Source of the DNA: Victivallis vadensis
GTDB taxonomy: Bacteria > Verrucomicrobiota > Lentisphaeria > Victivallales > Victivallaceae
Reading direction: 5' to 3'
NCBI RefSeq assembly: GCF_003096415.1
Contig: NZ_QEKH01000018.1
Location: 1 to 64,000 of the forward strand
Length of the DNA stretch: 64,000 nt
A program made the translations under genes and the position numbers. Below, piece by piece: positions 1 to 45,000 of the stretch. A model generated the notes under the pieces. It did not search any database and was not told the DNA's origin. It worked only from the letters and a program-made list of their open reading frames with translations. Every line of letters starts with the position of its first letter. Position 1 is the first letter of the stretch.

Positions 1-41
1 AAAACTAAATGGCAACTCTGAAAAATCTCATTCGGAGATTT

Positions 42-520
42 TCAGACATGAATAAACGGAATTCCTTTCAAAAAACTATTGATAGAGGTTCCCTTAATCG
101 TCAGAAACAGAATATCATCGGAATCCTTATCGCGGGCTACCGCTTGTTTGGAACGCAACAGATCGTCCAAGCATAGATATTTGACCGGAACACCGTGAAA
201 GTCGTGGATAATTGCCCGTTCTTCCACTGTGGAGAACTTGGGAAGCCCCGGTGGCGACAGATGAAACTGGATAATTCCGGCGGAAGTCTGGAAGGTCTGC
301 ACAAAACCTTCTCCGGCCTGAATATCAAGCGGTTCCAATTCCATATCAAGATCATCGGCCAACGCGGCATTGATCTTGGCGAAATTCTCCTGATCGAATG
401 GAGGAATGAAAATGTCCCAATCCAACGTGAAACGAGGCATGCCTTCCTGAAGCATAGCCTGACCGCCGATCACCACGTACGGACATTGGCTGCATTCAAC
501 CGCTTCAGAAGTTCTTCCAT
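42..520 (-). pseudogene. Nucleotidyltransferase (AbiEii / DUF6036-like), frameshifted
   Basis: The protein resembles small nucleotidyltransferase-fold proteins of the AbiEii/DUF6036 type, often encoded beside a short partner. A VIGGQAM motif near the N-terminus is followed by a D-W-D acidic pair, matching the GG...DxD pattern of the fold. The ATG at 518-520, after a GGGGAGTGA ribosome site, opens MEELLKRLNAANV and then reaches a stop. The remainder (PYVVIGGQAML onward) lies in another frame, open from about 485 to 42. One missing base near 480-485 would join the two frames into a normal N-terminus. The start overlaps the end of the small gene at 505-693. It is a pseudogene, or a sequencing error. 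Targets are unknown. Confidence 0.6.
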
Positions 521-693
521 TTCACTCCCCCCTGAGCAGCAATTTCTTTCAGATATTCCCGTTTCCAAGCATTCATTTCCTCATAATTGCGGAATGACTT
601 CTTTGAAAATTTGGGCAGATTGAGCGGCACCGGAAATTTCATGACCGGTGGATTAGCCAGCCAAAGCCGTATTTTCTGCTCTCGAATATCCAT
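505..693 (-). CDS. Small protein (62 aa) paired with nucleotidyltransferase
   Basis: This short protein of 62 residues starts MDIREQKIRL and ends VKWKNF. It is rich in charged and aromatic residues and has no membrane segment. An in-frame extension upstream to 834 exists but runs into the promoter region of the oppositely transcribed gene at 763, so the ATG at 691-693 is preferred. Its 3' end overlaps the start of the nucleotidyltransferase gene by 16 bases. That translational coupling resembles toxin-antitoxin or AbiE-like pairs, where a small protein precedes the transferase. No domain is recognised, and the pairing is the only evidence for a role. Confidence 0.5.
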   Translation of the reverse strand: MDIREQKIRLWLANPPVMKFPVPLNLPKFSKKSFRNYEEMNAWKREYLKEIAAQGGVKWKNF

Positions 694-762
694 AGTGTGT
701 TTGCTGCTCCTGTGTCTAATATAATTGAATTTTCTCAAAAAACAAGAAAAAGGTGATTTGTC

Positions 763-1020
763 ATGTTGAAGCTCAATGCCAGTTACAGTAAAAAGGTTCC
801 GGCTGGAGAGGAATATTCCAGCCAGAGCTATCATGCTTCAGTCGAAGTGGAACTGCCGGACGGGTTAAGCCCGGATCAGTTGCAGGCTCGTATTCACGAA
901 ACGTTTGATCTGGTGCGAAACTCGGTCGAAGCGGAATTGCATGGAAAAAGTCCCGCAAATTACGGGAGAAAATGGTCGGAAAAGCCCTGTAAAACGGGCC
1001 TCAAACATCCTCCGGCATGA
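763..1020 (+). CDS. Hypothetical protein, probably 3'-truncated
   Basis: The first 60 or so residues look like a genuine conserved protein: MLKLNASYSKKVP, then a regular amphipathic stretch (HASVEVELPDGLS) and a helix containing FDLVRNSVEAEL. The tail after about residue 62 is low-complexity, basic and proline-containing, and it is read through the antisense of the kinase gene's end. The coding part therefore probably stops being native near 950-985. It overlaps the convergent kinase gene tail to tail by 20 bases. I do not know the function. Similar short proteins occur, from memory, in accessory elements, which is weak evidence. The start follows an AAAAAGGTGATTTGTC leader. Confidence 0.5.
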   Translation: MLKLNASYSKKVPAGEEYSSQSYHASVEVELPDGLSPDQLQARIHETFDLVRNSVEAELHGKSPANYGRKWSEKPCKTGLKHPPA

Positions 1021-1543
1021 AACCGGGAGAACCGCAGGCTCCGGCATCGGCGTGATTCCTGACCAACCCGACATCCGCCAGTACCGCCTGTCGGTTGAGC
1101 CAGAGAATATTATCCGGCTTGATGTTTCGATGCATCAGCTTATGTCGGTGCAGCTCCTTCAATCCGGCAAGCAGTTCCACTGTCATTGCCATAACTTCCG
1201 AAGCCGGTAAAGGCCCTCGTGAACTCAACCGATGCGCCAGCGTATCGGCGGAATATCCCTCTCCGGGAGTGAGATTATCGGCCGGCGGCACGGTGTAATA
1301 GAGCCGATTGTCCACTTTGTCGATATGCAGGATCGGCAGCAGATTCGGGTGACGGCAGGAACGGAAACGGATCAGCCTGGCCAGTTCTTTTTGCATCGCC
1401 TTTCCGGTTCCCATCAGAAGCTTCAAGGCAACCGTCTGGCCGGAGAAGAGATTTTCCGCCAGGAATACCTGACCGAAAGAACCCTTGCCGCATTGCTCCA
1501 GCAACCGGTAAGCGCCGATGACATCGCCCGTTTTATATTCCAT
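1001..1543 (-). pseudogene. Ser/Thr protein kinase remnant (pseudokinase, C-lobe missing)
   Basis: This is the N-lobe and catalytic-loop part of a Hanks-type kinase. It has a glycine loop (CGKGSFGQVF), the ATP-binding lysine in VALKLL, the catalytic loop HRNIKPDN and a metal-binding motif DVG. It stops right after GSPGFMPEDV, where the APE motif and the whole C-lobe should follow, so at 180 residues it lacks about 80-100 residues of a kinase domain. The catalytic aspartate of HRD is also asparagine (codon AAC near 1123-1133), so even an intact protein would be a pseudokinase. Its ATG overlaps the end of the sigma factor gene by 11 bases, implying one transcript. It is probably a degraded gene. 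Confidence 0.75.
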
Positions 1544-2183
1544 TTTCCGGCAGCTCCAAAGTCGGATCGGCTGCGTTGATTTCAGCGATAATATGTTTCA
1601 ATTTCTGAACGCAGCGGGTACGGGCGATATAAACCTGATTCTTCGTGATTCCGAGTTGACTGATGACCTGATCGATCGGCATTTCCTGCACCATGTAGAG
1701 TTCAAAGGCGCAGTAGGTAATCGGCTCCACTTCCTTTCGGAGAAGTTCCATGGCGTCATGCAGGATCAACGCGCGCCATTCGTACAATAACGCGGTATTC
1801 AAGATGTCGTCCGGGCCGTCATCCGCATCTGCGGGATCTTCCGGAAGAGTCTCCACTGATTGGCTTACCGGAGGACGCTTCCGCAGAATATCGATGATTT
1901 TACCGTGAATGATCCTGCCGAAATAGGTACGAAACCGGGCAATTCCCGGATCGAACACGAAGGTTTTGGAGTTCTGAAAGAAGCGGAACATGACCTCCTG
2001 GAGCAAGTCGTCACATTCGGTGTCAGTCAGTCCTTTCAGGCGACCGAGCGAAATAATGATTTCCGAATAGCGAGCAATAAACTCCTCCCAGGAGACTTCA
2101 TCTCCCCCGGTCATCTTTTCCAATAAGGTTTGGGATGTTTCTGGATACTTCAAGCTGCTGCTCCGTTTTGAATTGGTTAACAT
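1533..2183 (-). CDS. ECF-type sigma-70 family RNA polymerase sigma factor
   Basis: This 216-residue protein has the two-domain layout of extracytoplasmic-function sigma factors. A region 2 helix bundle covers roughly residues 30-105 (WEEFIARYSEIIISL, then DDLLQEVMFRFF and RFRTYFGRIIHGKIID). A region 4 helix-turn-helix lies near residues 150-200 (AFELYMVQEMPIDQVISQLG followed by KNQVYIARTR). It would direct RNA polymerase to a dedicated set of promoters. It is translationally coupled to the kinase gene downstream. PVC bacteria often pair such sigma factors with Ser/Thr kinases, which suggests that the kinase once controlled the sigma factor. No anti-sigma gene is visible. Targets cannot be told from the sequence. 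Confidence 0.8.
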   Translation of the reverse strand: MLTNSKRSSSLKYPETSQTLLEKMTGGDEVSWEEFIARYSEIIISLGRLKGLTDTECDDLLQEVMFRFFQNSKTFVFDPGIARFRTYFGRIIHGKIIDILRKRPPVSQSVETLPEDPADADDGPDDILNTALLYEWRALILHDAMELLRKEVEPITYCAFELYMVQEMPIDQVISQLGITKNQVYIARTRCVQKLKHIIAEINAADPTLELPENGI

Positions 2184-2375
2184 ATCGCAAAGGATTCCGT
2201 TTTCAAGTCCTTGTTTCCTACTTGTCGGAATAAGGGCAAAAATCTCCCGTTATTTCCACAGATTTCTGATCGTTTTACGCTGTTTCAATGGCTCCCTGTA
2301 TCACTGTACAGGGGCATCGATTCAGACATGAAATCGAGGAAGAAACGGTTCTCGAATCGCTCGCTTTAGGTAAGC

Positions 2376-2411
2376 AGGAAGCGTATTGCCAACGAGGGCA
2401 ATACGCTTCCT
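2376..2411 (-). other. Perfect 15-bp hairpin downstream of repeat gene
   Basis: The arms 2376-2390 and 2397-2411 are perfectly complementary over 15 bases around a six-base loop. The hairpin begins 10 bases past the stop codon of the repeat-protein gene. On the minus strand it is not followed by a run of T, so it is not a classical terminator. It may stabilise or end the transcript with help from other factors. Confidence 0.6.
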
Positions 2412-2421
2412 TGCACGTAGT

Positions 2422-3045
2422 TTAGAAACGGTATTTCTTCAACACCGGATGCTTTCGGCAGAGCAATTGCCAGTCATCTTCCGAGAATTGGTTAATGACC
2501 GGGCATCGCTCGATGTAGTCCGGCAGATGAAACAACAAGTTCCACCAGTAGGAAACTGGAAAGCGTTCCCAGCAGTTACAATGAGGTTCGAAATCGCAAC
2601 TGTTTCGCAGCATGAGCAACCAGTCATAGAGGGAGAAACAGCTCCAATCTTTGATATAGGCTGCTGATTCGGGTGAACCCACCAGAAAAACGGCCTGTAT
2701 TGTCGGATGTTTGGGACTTGGACAATAGGATATCAGGCGCGGCTGAACCGAGAGCAATTCCGCCCATTCATTTATCGAGAAATTTTTCCAACAGCGGCAG
2801 TAGGCCGCAAGCTGTGGCTGCTTGGCCAACAACTCGCTCCATTGCAGCGTTCCCCATTCCAAAACACAGGGGCATTCTTGGAACAAATGCGGAGCCGATT
2901 GCAGCACAATGTTCCACGCAGAAGCGTTCCACGTTTGGAAGTCGCAATAGTCCCGAAGCTGCGGCGATGCGGCTAGTAACTTTCCCCACTCTTCAGCGGA
3001 AAAACGCCAGTCCGGGCAAGACTGTACGAATATCTTACAACGGAG
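2422..3045 (-). pseudogene. Tandem W/LL-repeat protein, 5'-truncated
   Basis: The frame encodes about eight tandem units of roughly 24-25 residues. The pattern is C-x-W..F(S)..x-W-x-x-LL-x-x-x-P-x-L-x-x-x-C, for example CPDWRFSAEEWGKLL and WKNFSINEWAELL. Such W/LL/P/C repeats should form a helical solenoid and probably bind protein. Three or four units lie upstream of the first usable start (GTG at 2907), and the frame continues to a stop at 3046-3048 with no ATG, GTG or TTG in between. The native N-terminus is therefore gone. The gene precedes the sigma/kinase pair on the same strand, and immediately upstream the DNA becomes very AT-rich. Function is unknown. Confidence 0.6.
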
Positions 3046-3322
3046 TCATTGCTCCTATTGTCAATTTCAGGCTGTTTTTCTTCTGATTTTTTTGTGTGTC
3101 AAATGCCATGGAAAGTTGACTCAAATGTATTGTTTTTAGATTGCCAGGTATACATAAATATCAATGATAATAGCTTATAATCAAATAATTATAATTCAAA
3201 TTTTACCTTTTATAGTTGCAATAATATTACTTTTATATTTGAGAGAAATTATTTTTAATACTGTATAAATATAATTTTATATAACCTCAAGAGAATTTAC
3301 AGGAATCATCTCTGTTTTCGGA
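3046..3322. other. AT-rich intergenic stretch
   Basis: These 277 bases, especially 3100-3300, are extremely AT-rich compared with everything around them. I see no coding frame or convincing RNA structure. The stretch lies between the broken repeat gene and the HTH gene and may hold the junction that removed the 5' end of the repeat gene. Confidence 0.5.
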
Positions 3323-3625
3323 TTATTTCACGGAAATGAACAACTCTAATGCTGTTCTCGGAATACGAGTGCTGCGTGCGGAGATTTTGATGACACCCAG
3401 CCAGCCTTCCCGAATGTAACGGAAGATTGATTTTGGATGGCAACCGAGTAGTTCGGCAGCCTCCTTTACAGTATATAATTTCTCCGGCACTTCCGGTCGG
3501 CTTTCGCCACCGGAAGCCGCCAGTTTCAGAAGTTCATTCAAGCGTCTGCCGTCAAGCAGGCCGTTTTTCACGGCTGGGGCCAAAAAGTCTTTGACCACTT
3601 TGATCTCTTCCGGGGTCAGGAGCAT
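3323..3625 (-). CDS. Excisionase/AlpA-like helix-turn-helix protein
   Basis: This 100-residue DNA-binding protein carries a C-terminal winged helix of the excisionase (MerR/AlpA-like) type: LYTVKEAAELLGCHPKSIFR, then YIREGWLGVIKI. The N-terminal 45 residues are helical and charged. Such proteins act as recombination directionality factors or as local repressors in integrated elements. It lies 50 bases downstream of the DUF4143 ATPase on the same strand and about 1.3 kb from the dead integrase, which fits a role in element excision or control. An adapter role in transcription alone is equally possible. Confidence 0.7.
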   Translation of the reverse strand: MLLTPEEIKVVKDFLAPAVKNGLLDGRRLNELLKLAASGGESRPEVPEKLYTVKEAAELLGCHPKSIFRYIREGWLGVIKISARSTRIPRTALELFISVK

Positions 3626-3674
3626 GTCACCCTCCGTTGCTGTCGACTTGACCAGTTATGACCCGGGGAGCGGC

Positions 3675-4835
3675 TCATTTTACTGCTGTTCCGGTATCTT
3701 TGAAGTTGAGGAATCTGATGCCATCGATTTCCGGCGTCAGATCACCGGAATAGATGACGAAACCGGGCTGGAATTTTTCCGACAGCTTGCGGAACTTCAG
3801 AAGGTTTTTGCAGAAGTCCTTGTTCCAGGTCATGCCGCCTTTGATCTCCACCGGAATCAGCGTTTGATTGTTCTTGCGGAACAGGAGGTCGGCCTCCAGC
3901 CCCTGCGAATCCCGAATGAAATACAATTCCGCCGTCTCGCCCGTGTTGAAGCGTTGTTTCAGCGCCTCAATGACTACCATGTTTTCAAAGAGTCCGCCGA
4001 ACAGCGGATCACGGGCAACCTGTTCAGGAGAGTTGATGCCCAATAGCCATGTCGCCAGACCGACTTCCGTAAAGTAGAGTTTTTTGCTCTTGATCAGGCG
4101 TTTGCCGAAGTTCTCGTAGTAACCCGGCAATTGAAAGACGATAAAGCTGGCTTCCAGTACGGAAAGCCACTGGGCGAGCGTCTGTGACGATACGCCCACA
4201 TCCCCCGCCAGTGAAGCCATATTGACCAGTTGTCCAACCCGGCCCGCCAGCAGCTTCACGAATGTTTCAAACTGGCTGAGGTCCTTGATATTCAGCATCT
4301 GGCGCACATCCTTCTCCACATAGGTCGAGAAGTAATCGCGGTAAAGGTTCTTCGGATCAAGCGTTGTGTCGTAAAGACGCGGCATGAAGCCGGAATAGAG
4401 GTACTGATCTCGCTCCAGTGTAATGCCGGAGGCAGTCATCTCGGAAATGGAGAGCGGCAGCAGTTGCAGAATGCCGGTACGCCCGGCCAACGACTGCGAA
4501 ACTCCGGCCCCCAAAGCCGGTTGATGGCTGCCGGTCAGGATATACTGCCCATAGCTTTTGTCTTCATCCACTGCGGTTTGAATGAAGCTCAACAGCTTCG
4601 GGACGCGCTGGATTTCATCGAAGATGACCGGCGGTGCGTAGCTCTTCAGAAATCCCCTGGGGTCGGCCTCGGCCATCTGCCGGATATCGAAATTCTCCAA
4701 ACTGACGTACCGGTGCTGCGGGAACGTCATCTTTGCAAGGGTAGTCTTGCCGGACTGCCGGGGGCCGGTAATCGTGACCACCGGATACATGGCGGCCAAC
4801 TTGAGCAGTTGTTGTTGTATTTCACGCTGAATCAT
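3675..4835 (-). CDS. AAA ATPase with C-terminal DUF4143 domain (copy 1)
   Basis: This 386-residue protein is of the AAA_14/DUF4143 type. Walker A is GPRQSGKTT near residue 25 and Walker B is VIFDEIQ near residue 70. A sensor-like ILTGSHQ follows, then a winged-helix middle (SSQTLAQWLSVLEAS). The C-terminal DUF4143 part carries a PD-(D/E)XK-like pattern (GLEADLLF followed by PVEIK). Family members are common in genomic islands and often occur in multiple copies; their biochemical role is not settled. The start MIQREIQ aligns with that of the second copy at 6682-7866, and a GGGGAAG ribosome site lies upstream. The two copies look closely related throughout. Confidence 0.85.
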   Translation of the reverse strand: MIQREIQQQLLKLAAMYPVVTITGPRQSGKTTLAKMTFPQHRYVSLENFDIRQMAEADPRGFLKSYAPPVIFDEIQRVPKLLSFIQTAVDEDKSYGQYILTGSHQPALGAGVSQSLAGRTGILQLLPLSISEMTASGITLERDQYLYSGFMPRLYDTTLDPKNLYRDYFSTYVEKDVRQMLNIKDLSQFETFVKLLAGRVGQLVNMASLAGDVGVSSQTLAQWLSVLEASFIVFQLPGYYENFGKRLIKSKKLYFTEVGLATWLLGINSPEQVARDPLFGGLFENMVVIEALKQRFNTGETAELYFIRDSQGLEADLLFRKNNQTLIPVEIKGGMTWNKDFCKNLLKFRKLSEKFQPGFVIYSGDLTPEIDGIRFLNFKDTGTAVK

Positions 4836-4915
4836 CGGACTTCCCCTTGGTAAGCATGGTTATTTTCCTCTTCTGCAATACAATAGCATTTTCTATGCGG
4901 ATTTCAAGTCGCATT

Positions 4916-6489
4916 TTATATTTGTTTGATTTTGGATTGAGCAGCAGTAATCTGCTCGGAGGACAACACGCCTGAAACAATTCGTTTTGCCGGACGGGAA
5001 AGGTTGAATTTTTTCATCCGTTTTCGGAGCGCTGTACCCGTCACACCGAAAACCTGACCAATGGCCTCAATGGTGTAATCAGGGAGAAGATATTGTAAAC
5101 GCTCCGGGGTAATGGCAAGAGCATTTTCCGGCTCCGGAAGTGCTTCCGCCTCGATGATATCGGCGGGGATAGACTGATGTTCAGAAAGCAATTGTTCTTG
5201 CAAACACTGAAGTTGTGACAGATCTGCTGTGTCGATGAACTGATGCAGTTTGCGCCGTAAAGCGGCAACCTGTGTACTTGGGGCTTCTTTTCCAATGGCC
5301 GGAAGCGTGTTGATGGCACGTTGTGCCGCAAGCTGATCCATGTGGTAGTAGTGCCGGGTCATGGCCGGGCTGCCGTGCCCGACGATCTCTTGGACGATCG
5401 CCATTGGGACTCCGGCATTGGCGCAAAAGCTGACGAAGCTGTGACGGAAAGAGTGCGTGTCGTACTGGCAGATGCGCCGCTTCACCTTCTCTTTGCCGTT
5501 GCCGAGTTTCTTGGTACGGACATGCTCGGGAGCAGCGATGGTAGCGTCAAGCCCGATGGAATTGATCAATTTGCTGATATCCTTACCGATTCCGGAGGGA
5601 TTCTTCCGATAACGTTCGGCGATTTCAGGAAGGATGTAACTGTTTTCGCTATGCCAGGCTTCGGCTTCGAGCAATGCCTGGCGAAGCTGCGGATGCAATG
5701 GAGCATCCTGTAGCCACTTGCCGGAGCGAGCTGCTGAAAAATCCGATTGACTTCTTCGGCTGTGAAATCTTGGTGGCTCTGCGGATTCTCACTCTTTTTG
5801 GAGATTCGGGCAAAAGGATTCTCCATGCCGTCCTCTTTGAGCACGATCCGGAAGATCAATTGCAGCGCTTGGCGATAGCTGTTATAGGTGGCCTCGAAAA
5901 TCCCGGTTCCCCAAAGGTAGGCCATGAATGCAGCGGCGGTGTCCGCATCAATCCAGCTGGCATCTTCGGCACGACGGTTCTTCTTCAGCCACGTAGTGAA
6001 TCGGTCACAGAAAATCTTGTACTTCTTCAGGGTGCCGGGGCCACTGTCCGGGCGTTCCGGGCTGGATTCAAAAGCAGTCCAGATGTCGGAAAGGCTGAGC
6101 CGGGTCCGATTGATGATCTTTTTGGCCTCCGCTACCTTCACCATCAGTTCAGCTTTGGATTCGATGGCGGTAATCTTTGGGATTCCGGCGAGAAATTCGG
6201 CAGCGGCTTTCTCTGCTATCGACTTTTCTGTAATGGCTTGATCCACACCTTTATCGGCTTTGGCAGTCAAGGTTTTCTTTTTGCGCTTGCCGCTGACTGG
6301 ATCAATGTACATTAAAACATAACGTCCGCGATAGAGATAGGCACTGCCTGCATTGTTTCCACGCCGTTTACCTTCCTTGAGTCTGCCTATGTTACCTTCC
6401 CTCGCTCTCACTGGTTTCCGCTCGTTTGCACACGTGGGAATGATATTCCAATTTTGGTGCAATTGCAACCTATTTGCAACCCAAAACAT
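4916..6489 (-). pseudogene. Tyrosine site-specific integrase, inactivated by internal deletion
   Basis: The N-terminal part (from 6489, or from a GTG at 6411) contains an arm-binding segment (GNIGRLKEGKRRGNNAGSAY) and a SAM-like core-binding domain (LSLSDIWTAFESSP). Around 5700-5715 the frame changes. The second half resumes at LHPQLRQALLEAE and holds the last catalytic motifs: HSFRHSF, GH in VGHGSP, and the nucleophile tyrosine in TRHYYH. The stretch that should carry the first catalytic arginine and the lysine is absent, so about 100 residues were deleted with a frame change. A C-terminal helix-turn-helix follows. The gene sits beside the tRNA fragment at 6518-6557, the usual place for an integrase of an element inserted in a tRNA gene. 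Confidence 0.85.
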
Positions 6490-6517
6490 TAAAATAAGCT
6501 CAAAACTAATTCACTCG

Positions 6518-6557
6518 TATGAATAGGTCATCGGTTCGATTCCGATTATTGGCTCCA
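6518..6557 (+). other. Attachment-site tRNA 3' fragment (tRNA-Thr-like)
   Basis: A T arm (6530-6546, five paired bases around TTCGATT) is followed by a seven-base acceptor strand, a discriminator base and CCA at 6555-6557. Just before it, ACTCGTA (6512-6518) resembles an anticodon loop with CGT, which would make this tRNA-Thr. The 5' half of a tRNA is not present upstream. This is what remains of the target gene at one end of an island whose integrase lies alongside. The intact or restored tRNA should lie beyond the left edge of the window. Confidence 0.7.
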
Positions 6558-6570
6558 ATTTGATCTTATC

Positions 6571-6601
6571 AGCCAGGCGTTTACACCGCTTGGCTCTTTT
6601 T
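6571..6601 (+). terminator. Rho-independent terminator after tRNA fragment
   Basis: A nine-pair stem (6571-6579 with 6587-6595, one G-U pair) with a seven-base loop is followed by C and a run of five T. It lies 13 bases past the tRNA CCA and is most simply the original terminator of the tRNA gene. Confidence 0.75.
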
Positions 6602-6681
6602 ATGCCGAAATTGCGAAAGATACCATCCGCCACCACCGTTTACGCTCAAACACCAAATCATAGACATACAATAGACTGACA

Positions 6682-7866
6682 TTAGTTTTTGCTGGTCAAA
6701 ACTTGTTTTGTAATGATGTCAGCGGTATCGGTGAAATTGACAAAACGGGTCTCCTTGATTGTCGGAGTCAAATCCCCGGAATAAATGACTGCACCGGGTT
6801 TGGCATTCGGCACTAGAGAGCGGAACTTGGTGATAGCTTCAGTAAAATCAGGATTGTAGCTCCGGGCGGCTTTGATTTCCATCGGCAGGAGTTCCCGGTT
6901 TTCATTGAGCAGCAGATCAATTTCCATACCTTTGCTGTCCCGATAAAAATAGAGTTCTCCTTCTTTGCCCGCATTATATCGGGCTTTCAGGGCTTCGACC
7001 ACCACCATGTTTTTGAATAATCCACCGAGAAGCGGATCTCGTGCCACCTGTGATACATCCTTAATTCCAAGCAGGTAGGTAGCCAAGCCGACTTCGGTAA
7101 AATAAAGTTTCGGAGTTTTCACCAACCGCTTGCCGAAATTCTGGAAATAACACGGCAACCGGAACACAATATGGCTTGCCTCCAATACCGAGAGCCATTC
7201 GGAGAGCGTCGAAACGGAAACGCCCACATCATTGGATAAACTGCTGAGGTTGACCAATTGTCCGACCCGACCAGCCAGCAATTTGATGAACAACTCAAAA
7301 TTCAAGCTGTTGCGGAGATTGATTAACTGCCTGGCATCTCGTTCTATATAAGTCATATAGTAGTTGCGGTACAGCAATTCCGGTTCAATATTGGAATCGT
7401 AGAGTTCCGGCATGAATCCCTTGAAGAGATATTCATCCCGATCCATCTGAATGCCCGCCTCAGTTAATTCCTGAATGGAAAGCGGAAGCAGTTGCAGAAT
7501 CGCCGTCCGTCCTGCCAAGGATTGCGAAACCTCGGCTCGAAGATTCGGCTGCTGACTGCCGGTCAGAATGAATTGACCTTTTTTCTTCTTGTCCCGATCG
7601 ACAATCACCTGAATATAACTGAGAAGTTTGGGAACCCGCTGAACTTCATCAATGATTACCGGAGCAGAATATTGCTCCAGAAACTCCTTGGAGTCTCTTT
7701 CCGCAAGCAAGCGGACATCCGGGTCTTCAAGGTTGACATACTTATAGTCCGGAAACTGTAATTGAACAAGAGTTGTTTTACCTGCCTGTCTCGGTCCGGT
7801 AATCGTAATTACCGGAAACTTCGTAGCTAGATCAGCCAATACCCCTTGAATTTTTCTCTTGATCAT
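6682..7866 (-). CDS. AAA ATPase with C-terminal DUF4143 domain (copy 2)
   Basis: This 394-residue paralogue of the protein at 3675-4835 has the same architecture. Walker A is GPRQAGKTT, Walker B is VIIDEVQRVP, the middle is a winged helix (VSTLSEWLSVLEAS), and the C-terminal nuclease-like pattern is GMEIDLLL followed by PMEIK. The ATG at 7864-7866 is chosen because GGAGGATAGGAAT precedes it directly and because MIKRKIQ aligns with the start of copy 1; a longer frame reaches 7911 without support. It lies outside the tRNA-marked end of the island and has no close neighbour on its strand. It is probably an independent insertion or the product of duplication. Confidence 0.85.
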   Translation of the reverse strand: MIKRKIQGVLADLATKFPVITITGPRQAGKTTLVQLQFPDYKYVNLEDPDVRLLAERDSKEFLEQYSAPVIIDEVQRVPKLLSYIQVIVDRDKKKKGQFILTGSQQPNLRAEVSQSLAGRTAILQLLPLSIQELTEAGIQMDRDEYLFKGFMPELYDSNIEPELLYRNYYMTYIERDARQLINLRNSLNFELFIKLLAGRVGQLVNLSSLSNDVGVSVSTLSEWLSVLEASHIVFRLPCYFQNFGKRLVKTPKLYFTEVGLATYLLGIKDVSQVARDPLLGGLFKNMVVVEALKARYNAGKEGELYFYRDSKGMEIDLLLNENRELLPMEIKAARSYNPDFTEAITKFRSLVPNAKPGAVIYSGDLTPTIKETRFVNFTDTADIITKQVLTSKN

Positions 7867-8040
7867 ATTCCTATCCTCCATGACGACAATAATATATCGC
7901 CACAAGAACAAATTTCAAGTTAAATCGAAAATTTGTTTCAGCCAAAGCCTGTACTAAAACCAAAGACACCTATTCATATCCAGGTCTTTACTTTACTTTT
8001 CAGTAAATTTATTGCGATAGATAAGTCATTTTACTAGAAT

Positions 8041-9705
8041 TTATCGCTTCCTTCGCCGCCGAGTTCCTGCGGTATCCATGTGCCCGAAGAAACCAACAAC
8101 TAAAACTTGTTTTTCGATACAAGCTCCCCAATATATCCGAGTAGAGTCATCATCCAATTTTATATGAGGGGTTATCTCAACATCATGGCCTTCAAATTTG
8201 ATTTTTCGGCCATTCATGAGCTTCTTGTGTTTTTGAGTGGCCTGAGATTCCGCCATTGCTAGTCTTCTACCGGAAAGCCTTTCAAATTCCTGCTCAATGT
8301 TACCTTGCCGTTTGCCAGCGATACACCAATCCCACAGAAAGGTGTGCATTGTTACAAGCGTGTTCCAAAACGTTTCCGTATCCTTAAATGTCGAATCAGC
8401 TAAATTTTCCATAGCATCAGCAGTAAAAACGATATGACCGGGAAAAAGCTTTTGGAACCAATGTAACGCCATTTCTAACGAGTTTGGATAATTATAGAAG
8501 CATTTATCAGCCGTAACTTGGGGATGATGTTGTTTCTTTTCCGTCAATTGATGTTGGAGATTTTCGATTTTAGAATTTAAACGTGATTCTTGACCTTCAT
8601 ATTCCTCACATTTTCCCTGCAGTTCTCCAATCTTTCCCTCTAATTCATCAACTCGCTTTTGTAAATCATCATTGTCCTTCCATAACATTTCATTAAATTG
8701 TTGAATTTCATCAATAGAAGATGCTTCACCCTTCTTTCGATTTTTCAGTTCAATAATTCGTTGCTTTCTGAAAAATGAAATTACTTCATCTGGTGAAAGC
8801 GGGTAGTTACTATGATAGCTTAGGTTTTTTCTTAATACAGCATCTGCAAATAGTTTTTCGGCATCTTCCTGTCCTAGTTGCAACAGCTTTTTGCCTGTAA
8901 CAAAACGATGGCGGAACGAGGCGGTTGGGGAGTTATTGTCTACGCCTTGCAGATATAAGCGAACAGCACCATCATATGTGAAAAGCTTTCGACCGAGCAT
9001 CACTCTAAATTCATCAAGAATATCATTATTTTTAGGAGGAAGTACGAATACTTGAGCTGCTCCCTGAAGACGTTTGGCTAACTTTTCTGGATCAACCAAG
9101 TAATTTCCTGATTCTTTCACTGGCGTTATTAGTATAACCGGACAGCTACGAGCTAAGTCGTCCAAATGGGAACGAAACCGATCGCCATCACCCAAGTGTA
9201 AAAGTGTTGCATTACCAGAAAATTCAGCGTTACCAGAATAGCTGATCATGGTTGAAGAAGTCAAAATACGTTTTACGATATTGGGAGTTGTGGGGACTGG
9301 CGTTGGGGGCATTTCGCCTAAATAATTTGCATCAATATTATAGGTCGTTTGTACTTGAAAGAAAATATCGGCAGATTGATTTTCAAATAAACCAATATAT
9401 GTATACCATTTTCGGAAAGGATAATCCCGATCGGGTTGTTCATGTAATAACGCCCAAACTCGATTTTTCCGTTCATACTCTTCTGCATAAGCAGTTTTAA
9501 TAAAAAATGGACCAAAGTGTTCGCTTCCTCCATTCTCAAACCACTTATCATACATGCCATTAATCGGCAGTCTATGAGCTCTAGGTTGATATGCAGCCCA
9601 AGAACGAACTTGGTTTAAAAGCTCTTGCCACAAATTGATCTGTTGATTTTTCCTTGAAGGACGGACAAAAAAACCACAGCGATAATGTAATGTTCCTACC
9701 TGCAT
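8041..9705 (-). CDS. Unknown 554-aa accessory protein with central coiled coil
   Basis: I do not recognise this protein with certainty. Residues 1-170 form a globular N-terminal region with many aromatics (KWYTYIGLFENQ). Around residue 190-230, PVILITP and YLVDPEKLAKRL are followed by QVFVLPP, an alpha/beta pattern I associate with uncharacterised proteins of defence-rich regions. A heptad-rich coiled coil covers about 335-390 (DDLQKRVDELEGKIGELQ). The C-terminal part, from about 400, ends in a compact beta-rich segment (RIYWGACIEKQVLVVGFFG) with a basic tail, loosely like small RelE/ParE-type or nuclease modules. Its GC content is clearly lower than that of the chromosome to the right, and it stands alone, so horizontal acquisition is likely. 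A single-gene defence role is speculation. Confidence 0.7.
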   Translation of the reverse strand: MQVGTLHYRCGFFVRPSRKNQQINLWQELLNQVRSWAAYQPRAHRLPINGMYDKWFENGGSEHFGPFFIKTAYAEEYERKNRVWALLHEQPDRDYPFRKWYTYIGLFENQSADIFFQVQTTYNIDANYLGEMPPTPVPTTPNIVKRILTSSTMISYSGNAEFSGNATLLHLGDGDRFRSHLDDLARSCPVILITPVKESGNYLVDPEKLAKRLQGAAQVFVLPPKNNDILDEFRVMLGRKLFTYDGAVRLYLQGVDNNSPTASFRHRFVTGKKLLQLGQEDAEKLFADAVLRKNLSYHSNYPLSPDEVISFFRKQRIIELKNRKKGEASSIDEIQQFNEMLWKDNDDLQKRVDELEGKIGELQGKCEEYEGQESRLNSKIENLQHQLTEKKQHHPQVTADKCFYNYPNSLEMALHWFQKLFPGHIVFTADAMENLADSTFKDTETFWNTLVTMHTFLWDWCIAGKRQGNIEQEFERLSGRRLAMAESQATQKHKKLMNGRKIKFEGHDVEITPHIKLDDDSTRIYWGACIEKQVLVVGFFGHMDTAGTRRRRKR

Positions 9706-10304
9706 TTACTATTCTCTTGTATTATTTTTCAAAATTCTATTTCTTACAAATTGCGTCAAACGTGTTTTCCCATTGTGGATTAGCAATGGAATTTCCAGCT
9801 TTTCTGCTAATTCATTGGCATAACATATTTCCATCTTTTGGAAAGCCTTAATTTTATCATACCACAGCGAGCAGAAAAACATCATCAGGATATGCCAAAT
9901 AATGGCATACTGACAAGCCGTTTTTCTGCAAGACGCTGTTGGTAAAGTGGTAGTTCAGATGGGACGTCTGTATTCAGTTGTAGAATTTATTTCTTAATTT
10001 GCTTTGGTTTACTTCCTTTCCATATAAGGTAAAACTCCTGTAATGTACTTCAGAAATTCGTCAATGCAAATTCAACTGATACTGCATTTCTCTTTTTTTT
10101 ACAACGTCCTGCTGTTTCGGCGAAGGCGGGGCAATGAATCAGAGTTGTTTTACAATACCTGCATATATCTTGTTGTTATTGAGGTCTTTGTTCCAGAAGT
10201 TCATTTTTTCCGCTATTGGCAGGTCAATGAGTGAAAATTTATTTTCCCGCCTGCGACATTTCCGACCGTCCATCTTTCTCCTTTTGCTGTTTCACGGTAA
10301 AAGA
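9706..10304. other. Gene-poor low-GC stretch
   Basis: About 600 bases hold only short frames without ribosome sites or recognisable protein patterns. A small inverted repeat (TATGCCA / TGGCATA) lies near 9892-9910. The stretch marks the border between the low-GC accessory region and the high-GC chromosome that begins with the MATE gene. Confidence 0.5.
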
Positions 10305-10350
10305 AAATCCCTTTCGCTTTGCAGTGTGATACACTGCCGGAAAGGGATTT
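10305..10350 (-). terminator. Rho-independent terminator of MATE operon
   Basis: An outer 11-bp stem (10305-10315 with 10340-10350) encloses an inner seven-pair stem (10321-10327 with 10331-10337). On the minus strand it is followed by TTTTCTTTT. It lies about 50 bases beyond the MATE stop codon. Confidence 0.8.
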
Positions 10351-10398
10351 CTTGCATGAAGAAAACGGAAAAATCAAAAAAATCGCCGGATTTCCGCG

Positions 10399-11859
10399 TT
10401 ATTGCGTGTCGCTGGCGCTGTCCACGTGGGCCTGGGCGGCGGCGAAGGCCTGGAGGCGGTTCGGCAGGAAGCGGCTCCAGGAGACCGGAGCGTAGACCGG
10501 CGGGGGCATGCCGTCTTCCGGAAGCTGTCGGGTCATGCGGCGGGCGAGCCAGAAGCCGATTCCTCCGGCAAGAACGTCGGCGATCAGCCGGGCGGCGAAG
10601 AGCGCTTCGAGCGAATGCAGATAGAGCGCCAGCAGCGACAGCGGAATCATCAGCCCGAGAATGCGCAGCGCGTTCAGCCACGCCGCCACGGCGGGACGGC
10701 CGCAGCCGGTGAAGAAGAATCCCGAGTAGCGGTGGATTTCGATCATGCCGAATCCCCATGGAATAATGTACATGCAGAGCGTCATGATCTTCTGCACATC
10801 GCGGTCCGGCGAGAAGAAGCGCACCAGCACCGGGGCCGTGAAGAAGTAGATCACCGCCATCGCCAGCAAAAACAGGAACGCGAAGCGCATCGAAAAACGG
10901 CGGCAGACGCGGATGCGGCTGTAGAGCCGGGCGCCGTAGTTCTGGCCGACCATGGAAAGTAGCGGAATGCCGAGCGCCATCGGGAAGATGAAAGCGACCA
11001 TTTCAAGCCGTCCGGCCGCGGCGGTCGCGGCGACGGCGGTGTCGCCGAAGGCGGCGGTGATCCGCGTGATGATCGCCGAACCGATCGGCATCATCAGCAT
11101 GCCGATGGAGGCGGGGACGGCGAACCGGATGATCAGCTTCCATGAGCTTTTAAGCCGTTTCCACGGAATCCGCTCGAAGCGGAGCAGGCCGTGGCGCCTG
11201 TAAAGGATCGTCAGCACCGCGATCGTCGCGACGAGCTGCGAGCCGATGGTCGCCAGCGCCGCTCCCCGGATGCCCATCGCCGGAACCGGTCCCCAGCCGA
11301 AGATGAACAGCGGGTCGAAAACCACGTTGATGATCATGCCGACGATCATCATGCCGCTGGCCACCTTGGAGTCGCCGGCGGCGATCAGCAGGTCGTTGCC
11401 GGTCATCGACAGCGAGGCGGTCGCACAGCCGAAATACCAGATGTTCATATAGCCCTTGACCTGTTCGAGGGTTTCGCCGGTCGCACCGAATTTTTCGAAG
11501 ATCCAGCCGGTCGTGCTCATGCCGAGCAGCGCAAGCACGAGGGAGATCGCGAAGATCAGCAGTACGCCGGAGGTGACCAGCTTGGCCGCCTTGGATTTGC
11601 GCCCGCCGCCGAGCGCCTGGGCCGAAGTGGTCATCACGCCGGAGGCGAGGCCGTGGAACAGGCAGCCGATCAGCATGATGACCGGGAAGGTGAACCCCAT
11701 CGCGGCAAGCGGCGACTTGCCCAGCTGCCCGACGAAATAGGTGTCGGCGATGTTGTAGCCGGACATCGCCAGAGTTCCGGCCAGCATCGCGAAGCCGGTT
11801 TTGAGCATGGTTCCCTCGATGGAACCGCGGGTGTAGGCGGCATTGTCTTTTTTCAGCAT
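10399..11859 (-). CDS. MATE family multidrug efflux transporter
   Basis: This 486-residue inner-membrane protein has about twelve hydrophobic segments in the two six-helix halves of the MATE fold. The family hallmark is near the N-terminus (SGYNIADTYFVGQLG), and a matching second half begins with IRFAVPASIGMLMMPIGSA. It would export cationic drugs or metabolites by Na+ or H+ antiport. Its ATG overlaps the end of the MarR gene by seven bases, so the pair is co-transcribed and the regulator very probably controls the exporter. A strong terminator follows at 10305-10350. The substrate cannot be inferred. Confidence 0.9.
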   Translation of the reverse strand: MLKKDNAAYTRGSIEGTMLKTGFAMLAGTLAMSGYNIADTYFVGQLGKSPLAAMGFTFPVIMLIGCLFHGLASGVMTTSAQALGGGRKSKAAKLVTSGVLLIFAISLVLALLGMSTTGWIFEKFGATGETLEQVKGYMNIWYFGCATASLSMTGNDLLIAAGDSKVASGMMIVGMIINVVFDPLFIFGWGPVPAMGIRGAALATIGSQLVATIAVLTILYRRHGLLRFERIPWKRLKSSWKLIIRFAVPASIGMLMMPIGSAIITRITAAFGDTAVAATAAAGRLEMVAFIFPMALGIPLLSMVGQNYGARLYSRIRVCRRFSMRFAFLFLLAMAVIYFFTAPVLVRFFSPDRDVQKIMTLCMYIIPWGFGMIEIHRYSGFFFTGCGRPAVAAWLNALRILGLMIPLSLLALYLHSLEALFAARLIADVLAGGIGFWLARRMTRQLPEDGMPPPVYAPVSWSRFLPNRLQAFAAAQAHVDSASDTQ

Positions 11860-41633: not shown

Positions 41634-42968
41634 ATGAAGCGTTGTTGGATGCTGATTGTATGCGGTGCATTGCTCTGGGGCGGGTTTGTTCCCGAAACGG
41701 CCGCTTTGGAGGTCCCCGGCGAAACGATCGGGGAAAAGAGCGCTGAAACGGAGAAGAAAGCGGAGCCGGAGAAAGAGGAGCAGCCGTCGGAAATCGACCG
41801 GATTCTCTCCGGCGAGGAGGCAATTCCGCTGGTTTCCAGTGAAGAGCTGGAGGATCATCTGAACCGGCAGGTCAATGAATTTCTGGAGTGGTTCAACCGG
41901 GAACGGCATGCGCTGCTGGTTTTTCTGCTGGGAAGCATCGGTTCGCTGGCGGTGGGGGGCGCGGTTGGTTATGGATTCAAGAAGCTGTTTGAAAAGAAAG
42001 CCGATCCCAAGACCAATTCGCTGCGCTGGCAACTGGCGTGGGCGCTGACTCAGCCGCTGCTGCTGATGATGGTGCTGATTTCGGTATTCGGTTTCATGCT
42101 GCCGGTGCTGCAATCGCTGCCGACGCTCTATGTGTGGGATGCGCGGCTTTTCTTCACCTGCGCGACCGCGATCGCGGCATGGGCGGGGCTGCGGCTGATC
42201 GAAGTGTTGAGCGTGCGCATGTGCGCCTATGCGAAGCGGCAGAACAACAACCTCGATGCGCTGATGGTCGACATCACCCGCAAGGTGCTGAAGATTTCGC
42301 TGGTGACGCTGACCGTGATGTTCATCGGACAGAGCATCTTCAATTTGAACATCACCACGCTGCTGGCCGGAGCCGGAGTGGTCGGGTTGGCGATCGCCTT
42401 CGCTTCGCGTGAAACGCTGTCGAACTTTTTCGGTACGCTGGTGATCATCATGGACCGGCCGTTCCGCTGCGGAGACCGTATCCAGACCGACGGCATCGAC
42501 GGATTGGTCGAATCGGTCGGGATGCGCAGCACCCGGATTCTGACCGATGACGAAAGCGTCTATACGATTCCGAACAGCAAGATCGCCGAAAGCAACATCG
42601 AGAACATCAGCCGCCGCGGCCTGATCCGCTTTGCGTTCACATTGGGGCTGGTGTACGACACCTCCGATGAAAATATGGCGAAGGCGATGAAGATTCTGCA
42701 TGGGATCGTGGATAATTTCAAGGGGCAGGATCTGCCCGCGTACACTCCCCGGATTTTCTTCGACACCTTCGGAGCGTCGGCGATGAACATCCGCGTGATC
42801 ATGTGGCTGAAAACCGCCAGCTTCGAGACGGAGGAAGCGTGGCGCACCGAAATCAACCTTGCGATCCTGAAACAGTTCAACGAAGCCGGCTTGAGCATGG
42901 CCTACAATACGGTCACGAACTACGTCAAATTCGACCCGGCCGCCCTGCCGTCTCCGGCGGCGCGGTGA
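41634..42968 (+). CDS. mscS: MscS-family mechanosensitive ion channel
   Basis: This 444-residue membrane protein has a signal peptide or first helix (MLIVCGALLWGGFVPETAA), a charged periplasmic segment, then three to four helices. The pore helix has the alanine/glycine pattern LLAGAGVVGLAIAFASRETL, and the MscS beta domain follows (GDRIQTDGIDGLVESVGMRS, IPNSKIAESNIENIS). It opens under membrane tension to release solutes after osmotic downshock. The ATG at 41634 follows AGAGGAGTTGAAT; the in-frame TTG six bases earlier is not needed. Monocistronic with a near-consensus promoter. Confidence 0.93.
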   Translation: MKRCWMLIVCGALLWGGFVPETAALEVPGETIGEKSAETEKKAEPEKEEQPSEIDRILSGEEAIPLVSSEELEDHLNRQVNEFLEWFNRERHALLVFLLGSIGSLAVGGAVGYGFKKLFEKKADPKTNSLRWQLAWALTQPLLLMMVLISVFGFMLPVLQSLPTLYVWDARLFFTCATAIAAWAGLRLIEVLSVRMCAYAKRQNNNLDALMVDITRKVLKISLVTLTVMFIGQSIFNLNITTLLAGAGVVGLAIAFASRETLSNFFGTLVIIMDRPFRCGDRIQTDGIDGLVESVGMRSTRILTDDESVYTIPNSKIAESNIENISRRGLIRFAFTLGLVYDTSDENMAKAMKILHGIVDNFKGQDLPAYTPRIFFDTFGASAMNIRVIMWLKTASFETEEAWRTEINLAILKQFNEAGLSMAYNTVTNYVKFDPAALPSPAAR

Positions 42969-43010
42969 TGCCTGTTTCCGGCGCTTCGTCCTTGCCTGCC
43001 GTACACCGAA

Positions 43011-43613
43011 TCAGGCAAGCGTTTCGATGAAGTGTTCCGGGTATCTCTCCCGGTACGCCTTGTAGACCCGGTCCGGGCAACCGTCGAAGTTGAGCTGGTA
43101 CAGCCGGAAAGTGATCGTGATGTTCTTGGGCATCCAGTGCTCGACGTAACTGTAACAGTATTTCATGCCGAGCTTTTTCATCACCTCGCCGCTGCGCGGG
43201 TTGTTGACGTCGTGCGTGGCGGTGATATAGGAATAACCGGCAGCCCGGATGCGTTCCGTCACCGCCCGGGCCGCTTCCGTGGCGATGCCCCGGTGCTGGA
43301 AGCCGCTGCGCAGCCCGTAGCCGAAATCGCGGCTGTCGTCATTGCTCATGCCGACGTAGCCGACCGGGATGTTGTCGCTTTTGAGGCAGATCACGTACCG
43401 GTAGCCGGCGGGAGCCGCATACTGGTCGAAGTAGCGTTCCCGGACGTGCCGCCGGACGTCGTCGAGATTCTCCGCCGGATACCAGGGCAGGAAGGTGTTG
43501 GCTTCCCGGTCGCTCAGGATGGCGAACATTGCGTTGAGATCGTCCGGCGTCTCCTCCAGCTTGCGCAGGATCAGGCGCTCCGTTTCCAATCGCGGCGTAT
43601 TTTCGTAAATCAC
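43011..43613 (-). CDS. GNAT-family N-acetyltransferase (RimJ/RimL type)
   Basis: This 200-residue acetyltransferase opens with ENTPRLETERLILRKLEE, typical of RimJ/RimL-like GNATs. It has the acetyl-CoA loop around GYGLRSGFQHRGIATEAARA, followed by ITATHDVNNPRS, where the conserved asparagine sits. It could acetylate protein N-termini, an antibiotic or a small amine. It ends 42 bases after the mscS stop (convergent) and starts 13 bases downstream of the UDP-glucose dehydrogenase gene on the same strand, perhaps as the last gene of that transcript. Confidence 0.88.
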   Translation of the reverse strand: MIYENTPRLETERLILRKLEETPDDLNAMFAILSDREANTFLPWYPAENLDDVRRHVRERYFDQYAAPAGYRYVICLKSDNIPVGYVGMSNDDSRDFGYGLRSGFQHRGIATEAARAVTERIRAAGYSYITATHDVNNPRSGEVMKKLGMKYCYSYVEHWMPKNITITFRLYQLNFDGCPDRVYKAYRERYPEHFIETLA

Positions 43614-43626
43614 GCTGACTTCCGGT

Positions 43627-45000
43627 TCAGAAGTGGGTCAAAGCCTTCTGCCCGATCGGATAGACGTTGAAGCCGATTTCGTACAGCTTCCGATGGTCGA
43701 GCAGGTTGCGCCCGTCGAAAAGGAACGCGGGCTTTTCCATCAGGTCGTAAATCCTGCGGAAATCCAGTTTGCGGAAGGAGTCCCATTCGGTGAGCAGCGC
43801 AATGGCGTGCGCCCCCTTGACCGCGTCATACGGGTCCTCGCAGTAGCTGATGTCGCCCTCCGCGTCTTCCAGGTCAAGCCGGGCGTTGCCGAGCGCCTTG
43901 GGATCGTGAATCCGGAGCCGGGCGTGCTCTTCGAGCAGCTGGCAGCAGACCGCGATGGCGGGGGATTCGCGGGTATCGCCGGTGTTCGCTTTGAAAGCGA
44001 AGCCGAGAATCGCGATCTTTTTATCCGCCACGGTGTTGAACATCGCCGCGAGCATGTTGCCGACGAAGCGTCGGGCCTGATAGTCGTTCATCCTGACCAC
44101 CTGCTCCCAGTATTCGGCGACTTCGGGCAGCCCGTAATAGCCGCAGAGATAGACGAGGTTCAGGATGTCCTTCTTGAAGCAGGAGCCGCCGAAACCGATG
44201 CTCGCTTTCAGGAATTTCGCGCCGATCCGGCTGTCGCGTCCGGCGGCGGCGGTGACTTCATTGATGTTCGCCTCGGTTTTCTCGCACAGCGCGGAAATGC
44301 TGTTCACCGAGGAGACCCGCTGGGCGAGCAGGGCGTTGGAGACCAGCTTGGTCAATTCGCTGCTCCAGAGATTGGTGGTGATGATCCGTTCGCGCGGGAC
44401 CCAGTTCGCATAGATCGCGACGACCTCCTCGATCGCCCGCTGCCCTTCCGGGGTCTCCATGCCGCCGATCAGCACGCGGTCGGGGTTTTCAAGGTCATTG
44501 ATCGCGGTTCCTTCCGCGAGAAACTCCGGATTGGAGATGATCTGGAACTTCAGTCCCTTGGGGTTGGAGTGCAGAATCCGGCTCATCGCCTGTGCGGTCC
44601 GCACGGGCAGGGTGCTCTTTTCCACCACGATCTTGCCTTCATCGGCATATTCGACGATCGCCCGCGCGGTCTTTTCCAGATATTGCAGGTCGGCGGCGCG
44701 GCCGGCGCCGCAGCCGAAGGTCTTGGTCGGCGTATTGACGCTGACGAAGATGATATCCGCTTCGCGGATGCCCTTCGGAATGTCGGTGGAGTAAAAGAGA
44801 TTCCGGTTCCGGCAGCGCGCGACCACCTCTTCCAGGCCGGGCTCGTAGATCGGCAGCTCATCGGAATTCCAGGCGGCGATCCGTTTTTCATTCAGGTCCA
44901 CGACCGTGATCTGGTACTGGGGGCAGCGGTCGGCGATCACCGCCATGGTCGGGCCGCCGACGTATCCGGCGCCGATGCAGAGAATCTTTTTGGTTGTCAT
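43627..45000 (-). CDS. ugd: UDP-glucose 6-dehydrogenase
   Basis: This 457-residue enzyme oxidises UDP-glucose twice to UDP-glucuronate. The N-terminal NAD motif is [33 protein letters not shown] is a marker of the animal-type branch, and the catalytic cysteine is in [13 protein letters not shown]. The C-terminal UDP-binding part holds [18 protein letters not shown]. The length and these motifs fit the longer eukaryote-like branch also seen in some bacteria. Its product is the substrate of the enzyme encoded at 45014-45979, 14 bases upstream. Confidence 0.94.

Follow-up and report, generated by a model that had tools for sequence, protein, structure and literature searches.

The window analysed here comprises 64,000 nucleotides of the Victivallis vadensis genome and starts at the first position of contig C18 (NZ_QEKH01000018.1). 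Close to its beginning, three genes follow one another on the minus strand in the order W-LL repeat gene, ECF sigma factor gene and Hanks-type Ser/Thr kinase fragment, the kinase start overlapping the sigma stop by 11 nt (Table 1). They are flanked on one side by the 5′ part of a small gene of mobile-element type and on the other by genes for an HTH_17 protein, an AAA_14/DUF4143 ATPase and a tyrosine integrase. A DUF6036-like nucleotidyltransferase gene and a small gene upstream of it, likely a two-gene unit, occupy positions 45-834 of the minus strand, and a second AAA_14/DUF4143 ATPase gene related to the first is located at 6682-7911, so that the two ATPase genes flank the integrase.

Table 1. 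Features identified at the start of the window (positions are those of the window).
Feature	Position	Strand	Remarks
Small mobile-element gene, 5′ part	763-1020	+	Truncated, fused to the kinase 3′ end
Recombination or deletion junction	1003-1005		G026 alignment stops at 1003-1004
Hanks-type Ser/Thr kinase fragment	1543-1001	-	180 aa, cut past the activation segment, HRN
ECF sigma factor	2183-1533	-	216 aa, open frame, Sigma70_r2 and TIGR02937 matches
W-LL repeat gene	3045-2425	-	207-aa open frame with eight units of two helices, about 25 aa each
HTH_17 gene of the element	3326-3625	-	G026 element homology resumes at 3405
AAA_14/DUF4143 ATPase of the element	3675-4835	-	Inside the 89% identical G026 stretch
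Tyrosine integrase	6489-4916	-	Broken into overlapping frames, 6489-5566 and 5698-4916, half a protein each
Attachment-site copy	6519-6561	+	43 bp, exact match to the tRNA-Thr(CGT) 3′ end and four further bases

Positions 1-6561 of the window are the end of an integrative element. Elements that have integrated at a tRNA gene are typically recognised by an integrase together with a duplicated 3′ end of the tRNA, and both are present here: the integrase lies beside the attachment-site copy, whose 43-bp repeat partner is found on contig C51 of the same genome (C51:16274-16316), at the end of an intact tRNA-Thr(CGT) gene (C51:16237-16312). The integrase is split into two frames rather than intact, which indicates that the element has decayed. 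GC content is mostly 0.35-0.56 across positions 1-10400, compared with mostly about 0.6 or more past 10.5 kb. Contigs C18 and C51 are not joined in the assembly, and further element DNA may lie between them. The presumed other end of the element (C51:16313-24288, loci L150 and L151) carries genes for a MatE transporter, a DsbD-like protein, a regulator that is ArsR-like by sequence and a DnaN-like protein.

A related, intact element in the same orientation was identified in genome G026 (contig C2, about 358-370 kb). Its DnaN-like gene and the end of C51 share 91% identity, its small gene is 88% identical to window positions 790-1004, and its HTH_17/DUF4143 stretch is 89% identical to positions 3405-4909. 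The kinase frame of the window ends at the same point as the first of these window alignments, and its stop codon falls in element-derived sequence. This coincidence indicates that a single junction removed the 3′ parts of both the kinase gene and the small gene. The block between the two alignments (1004-3405), which holds the kinase fragment, the sigma factor gene and the repeat gene, is absent from the G026 element. The three genes could therefore have come as one piece, and the block may have arrived in this way. The element on C2 has a repeat gene, without a sigma-kinase pair.

The sigma factor matches Pfam Sigma70_r2 (E 1.7e-8) and, over residues 32-197, the TIGR02937 sigma70-ECF model (E 1.8e-15), both beyond the cut-offs of the models, which places it among the ECF sigma factors. 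Its gene is apparently intact, as judged from the open frame. The acidic DAED-like motif is retained as ECDD; across the family, the last acidic position of this motif is kept in 29 of 29 sigma factors and two others in 24 of 29, and Ser or Thr at any single position of it occurs in at most 14 of the 29. Members of the family were detected in 78 of 100 genomes, that of V. vadensis included. Two more of them lie on its contig C14 (39618-40130, minus strand, and 41764-42234, plus strand; locus L014) and adjoin a tyrosine integrase (42366-43911) next to tRNA-Arg(CCG); the copy at 41764 loses homology in region 4.

The kinase fragment matches Pkinase (E 2e-18) over profile positions 1-165 of 263 only. 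Its catalytic motif reads HRN, whereas HRD is present in all 28 other sigma-paired kinases. Judged by these features, the window kinase is dead, since the catalytic Asp is replaced and everything past the activation segment is gone. In 27 of 29 pairs, the kinase domain is followed by a strongly hydrophobic, membrane-like segment, which in intact kinases begins around residue 254-362 of the frame; only two short kinase frames lack it, namely the window copy and that of locus L055. Intact kinases also carry an extra C-terminal region. Another sigma-linked kinase frame (L125, G002:C45:6454-7092) is short as well (213 aa) and perhaps decayed. Matches of the window kinase to the PADLOC models PD-T4-6 and mad6 were read as generic kinase-domain similarity and set aside.

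The pairing of sigma factor and kinase is conserved among relatives. In all 20 loci examined, which were the best-scoring sigma loci fetched, a kinase gene directly adjoins the sigma factor gene, and the V. vadensis genome itself has a second, intact pair on contig C19 (sigma factor 47% and kinase 54% identical). At the end of the C19 contig, near position 111284 (locus L013), a short tandem repeat (translated SKQASKQA) immediately precedes the intact sigma gene. The window copy, with its truncated kinase and HRN motif, represents the known STPK-linked ECF pairs in decayed form. It resembles ECF43, represented by EcfP-PknT of Vibrio parahaemolyticus and EcfK-PknS of Xanthomonas citri, in the adjoining genes for an ECF sigma factor and a Hanks-type Ser/Thr kinase and, for the intact copies, in the membrane segment of the kinase. 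It also shares its gene pairing, in the wider PVC setting, with the planctomycete STPK-linked groups ECF59, ECF61, ECF62 and ECF217, to which it is likened by this pairing and not by group-model score. A literature search for such sigma-kinase pairs in Victivallis returned no paper.

In intact relatives, the sigma factor gene is immediately followed by that of a membrane kinase which bears a C-terminal region. By analogy with ECF43 systems (PMC8999054), this kinase most likely activates the sigma factor by phosphorylation. In ECF43 the DAED motif is absent and a Thr in its place is phosphorylated (PMC8999054), a combination that was not found among the 29 sigma factors, and a DAED-like motif is reported to be retained in the other STPK-linked ECF groups (PMC8999054). 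Unlike ECF43, the family described here keeps the acidic residues and does not conserve the ECF43 Thr. Because the acidic motif is retained and no Ser or Thr within it is conserved, the details of activation must differ from those of ECF43. In the window, the loss of the catalytic Asp and, at the junction near position 1004, of all that follows the activation segment would leave the switch dead or the sigma factor orphaned.

The frame of the W-LL repeat gene matches relatives in other genomes with E-values down to 3e-31, far above chance. An AlphaFold2 model built from six sequences contains eight helix pairs spaced 23-25 residues apart (pLDDT 80.7, pTM 0.63); unit 5 lacks the Trp. The first in-frame ATG, GTG or TTG codon is the GTG at 2907; a start there would leave out units 1 and 2, and the 5′ end of the gene is likely broken. 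No match to the window protein was obtained in Pfam, NCBIfam, PHROG or PADLOC. DUF285 was considered as the family of these repeats and is not trusted, as one relative scored above the cut-off (E 3e-12) and the others had no match. The tandem two-helix units of the predicted solenoid are shared with the armadillo, HEAT, PPR and Pumilio alpha-solenoids, but the W-LL repeats have their own conserved pattern of W, LL, P and C, with no Foldseek match at E 0.001 or better and VIA-align Z-scores below 5 throughout. Comparison of folds with the PDB gave weak, generic solenoid matches (best Foldseek E 0.15, best VIA Z 4.9), and a PDB sequence search with a clean repeat protein returned no trusted relative.

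At the level of single genes, these results agree with the preliminary description of the locus. The three genes lie on one strand as described, according to their frames and profile matches; the ECF assignment is borne out by Sigma70_r2 and TIGR02937, the coupling of a Hanks-type kinase fragment to the sigma factor by the Pkinase match and the overlap, and the count of about eight W..LL...P.L...C units by the eight predicted helix pairs. The statement that two of the three genes are broken is firm for the kinase, which is cut and carries HRN, and for the repeat gene it is likely at the 5′ end.

The repeat family was found in 27 of 100 genomes, that of V. vadensis included, and a wider family, whose clean tandem unit has the consensus DWSELLSKQPQFADKCDW, in 46 of the 388 genomes sampled from the phylum. 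Window-type genes, the closest relatives of the window gene, occupy 13 loci in Victivallis and its near kin. At 11 of these 13 loci, no more than 200 bp separate the repeat gene from a YagK/YfjJ-like gene, and three of four YagK/YfjJ-like proteins tested match Pfam YagK_YfjJ_C; no such gene was seen near any of 27 other repeat loci or 20 sigma-kinase loci. In seven of the 13 window-type loci, a block of DUF932, PD-(D/E)XK nuclease, small and DnaN-like genes is also present within 6 kb. The Victivallales integrative elements with YagK/YfjJ-like genes share with the window element the tRNA 3′-end repeat, the tyrosine integrase, the HTH_17, DUF4143 and DnaN-like genes and the W-LL repeat gene. 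The window copy differs from them in its split integrase, in a small gene without a 3′ end and in that a search of its own genome, run without a positive control, found no YagK/YfjJ-like gene.

As part of the explanation of the whole locus, it is highly likely that the branch to which the window repeat gene belongs is carried as an accessory gene by Victivallales integrative elements with YagK/YfjJ-like, DUF932, PD-(D/E)XK nuclease and DnaN-like genes. From the predicted fold and this neighbourhood, the repeat protein would most likely be a protein-binding scaffold for the element. On balance, we consider it probable that the W-LL proteins form an undescribed family of alpha-solenoid repeats in this phylum, and that one of its branches belongs, as an accessory and perhaps functional component, to a family of Victivallales integrative elements tied to a YagK/YfjJ-like replication gene. 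Homologues of the repeat were absent from 50,697 phage records, and a viral scan with the window-type alignment gave no match; the wider family is represented on two IMG/VR contigs. One predicted viral contig of IMG/VR (L142, 79.7 kb) carries W-LL repeat genes at 1080-2543 and at 5260-6834. Matches of the repeat query to Enterobacteriaceae plasmids proved to be frames of VWESPHVCRALP tandem sequence and were dismissed as chance matches with no relationship to the family.

The preliminary description had combined the three genes into a signalling system in which the repeat protein senses, the kinase signals and the sigma factor responds. A real but rare system of this kind, caught here in decay, would account for the common strand, the small gaps and the location of all three genes in the 2.4-kb block missing from the related G026 element. 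In G026, moreover, the best sigma relative and a best repeat relative are in one low-GC island, though about 14 kb apart. However, a search of the genomes of relatives for an adjacent trio found none outside the window: at none of the 20 sigma-kinase loci does a repeat gene stand beside the pair, and the 3 kb around the repeat gene are free of sigma-kinase pairs at all 40 repeat loci read with their flanks, one of which (in G036) has such a pair 7.4 kb away. For the 23 genomes with both families, 0.25, 0.84 and 1.26 pairs are expected by chance within 3, 10 and 15 kb, an estimate based on cluster counts per genome read by eye from the family searches, and 0, 1 and 2 co-locations were observed at these distances, in a sample in which many genomes are fragmented and neighbours at contig ends may be missed. 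The two looser co-locations are about what chance predicts and no adjacent trio occurs elsewhere, which refutes the three-gene claim by the test proposed with it. Intact kinases, moreover, bring their own membrane segment and C-terminal region, which makes a separate sensor protein unnecessary. A genuine three-gene system is therefore very improbable.

The sigma-kinase pair might instead be regular cargo of integrative elements, regulating their genes and perhaps the repeat gene as well. The window pair does sit in the tRNA-Thr element, the two sigma relatives on C14 adjoin an integrase at a tRNA gene, and the low-GC island of G026 that holds its sigma-kinase copy begins beside tRNA-Pro. This reading is nevertheless unlikely, as the YagK-like, DUF932 and nuclease genes of the present element family were found in none of the 20 sigma-kinase loci, where for most loci the check was limited to these genes. 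Very probably, the trio represents a decayed ECF-kinase pair of known kind and an unrelated repeat gene that met inside one decayed integrative element, their adjacency having come about through recombination within that element.

The gene neighbourhood thus reflects membership of, or stranding in, a decayed mobile element and not a new signalling system. The analysis removes the proposed system and puts in its place a kinase-sigma switch of known kind that was cut by recombination in a tRNA-Thr integrative element. It also brings to light an unnamed repeat family with one branch tied to a family of mobile elements, which offers a concrete place to seek its function.
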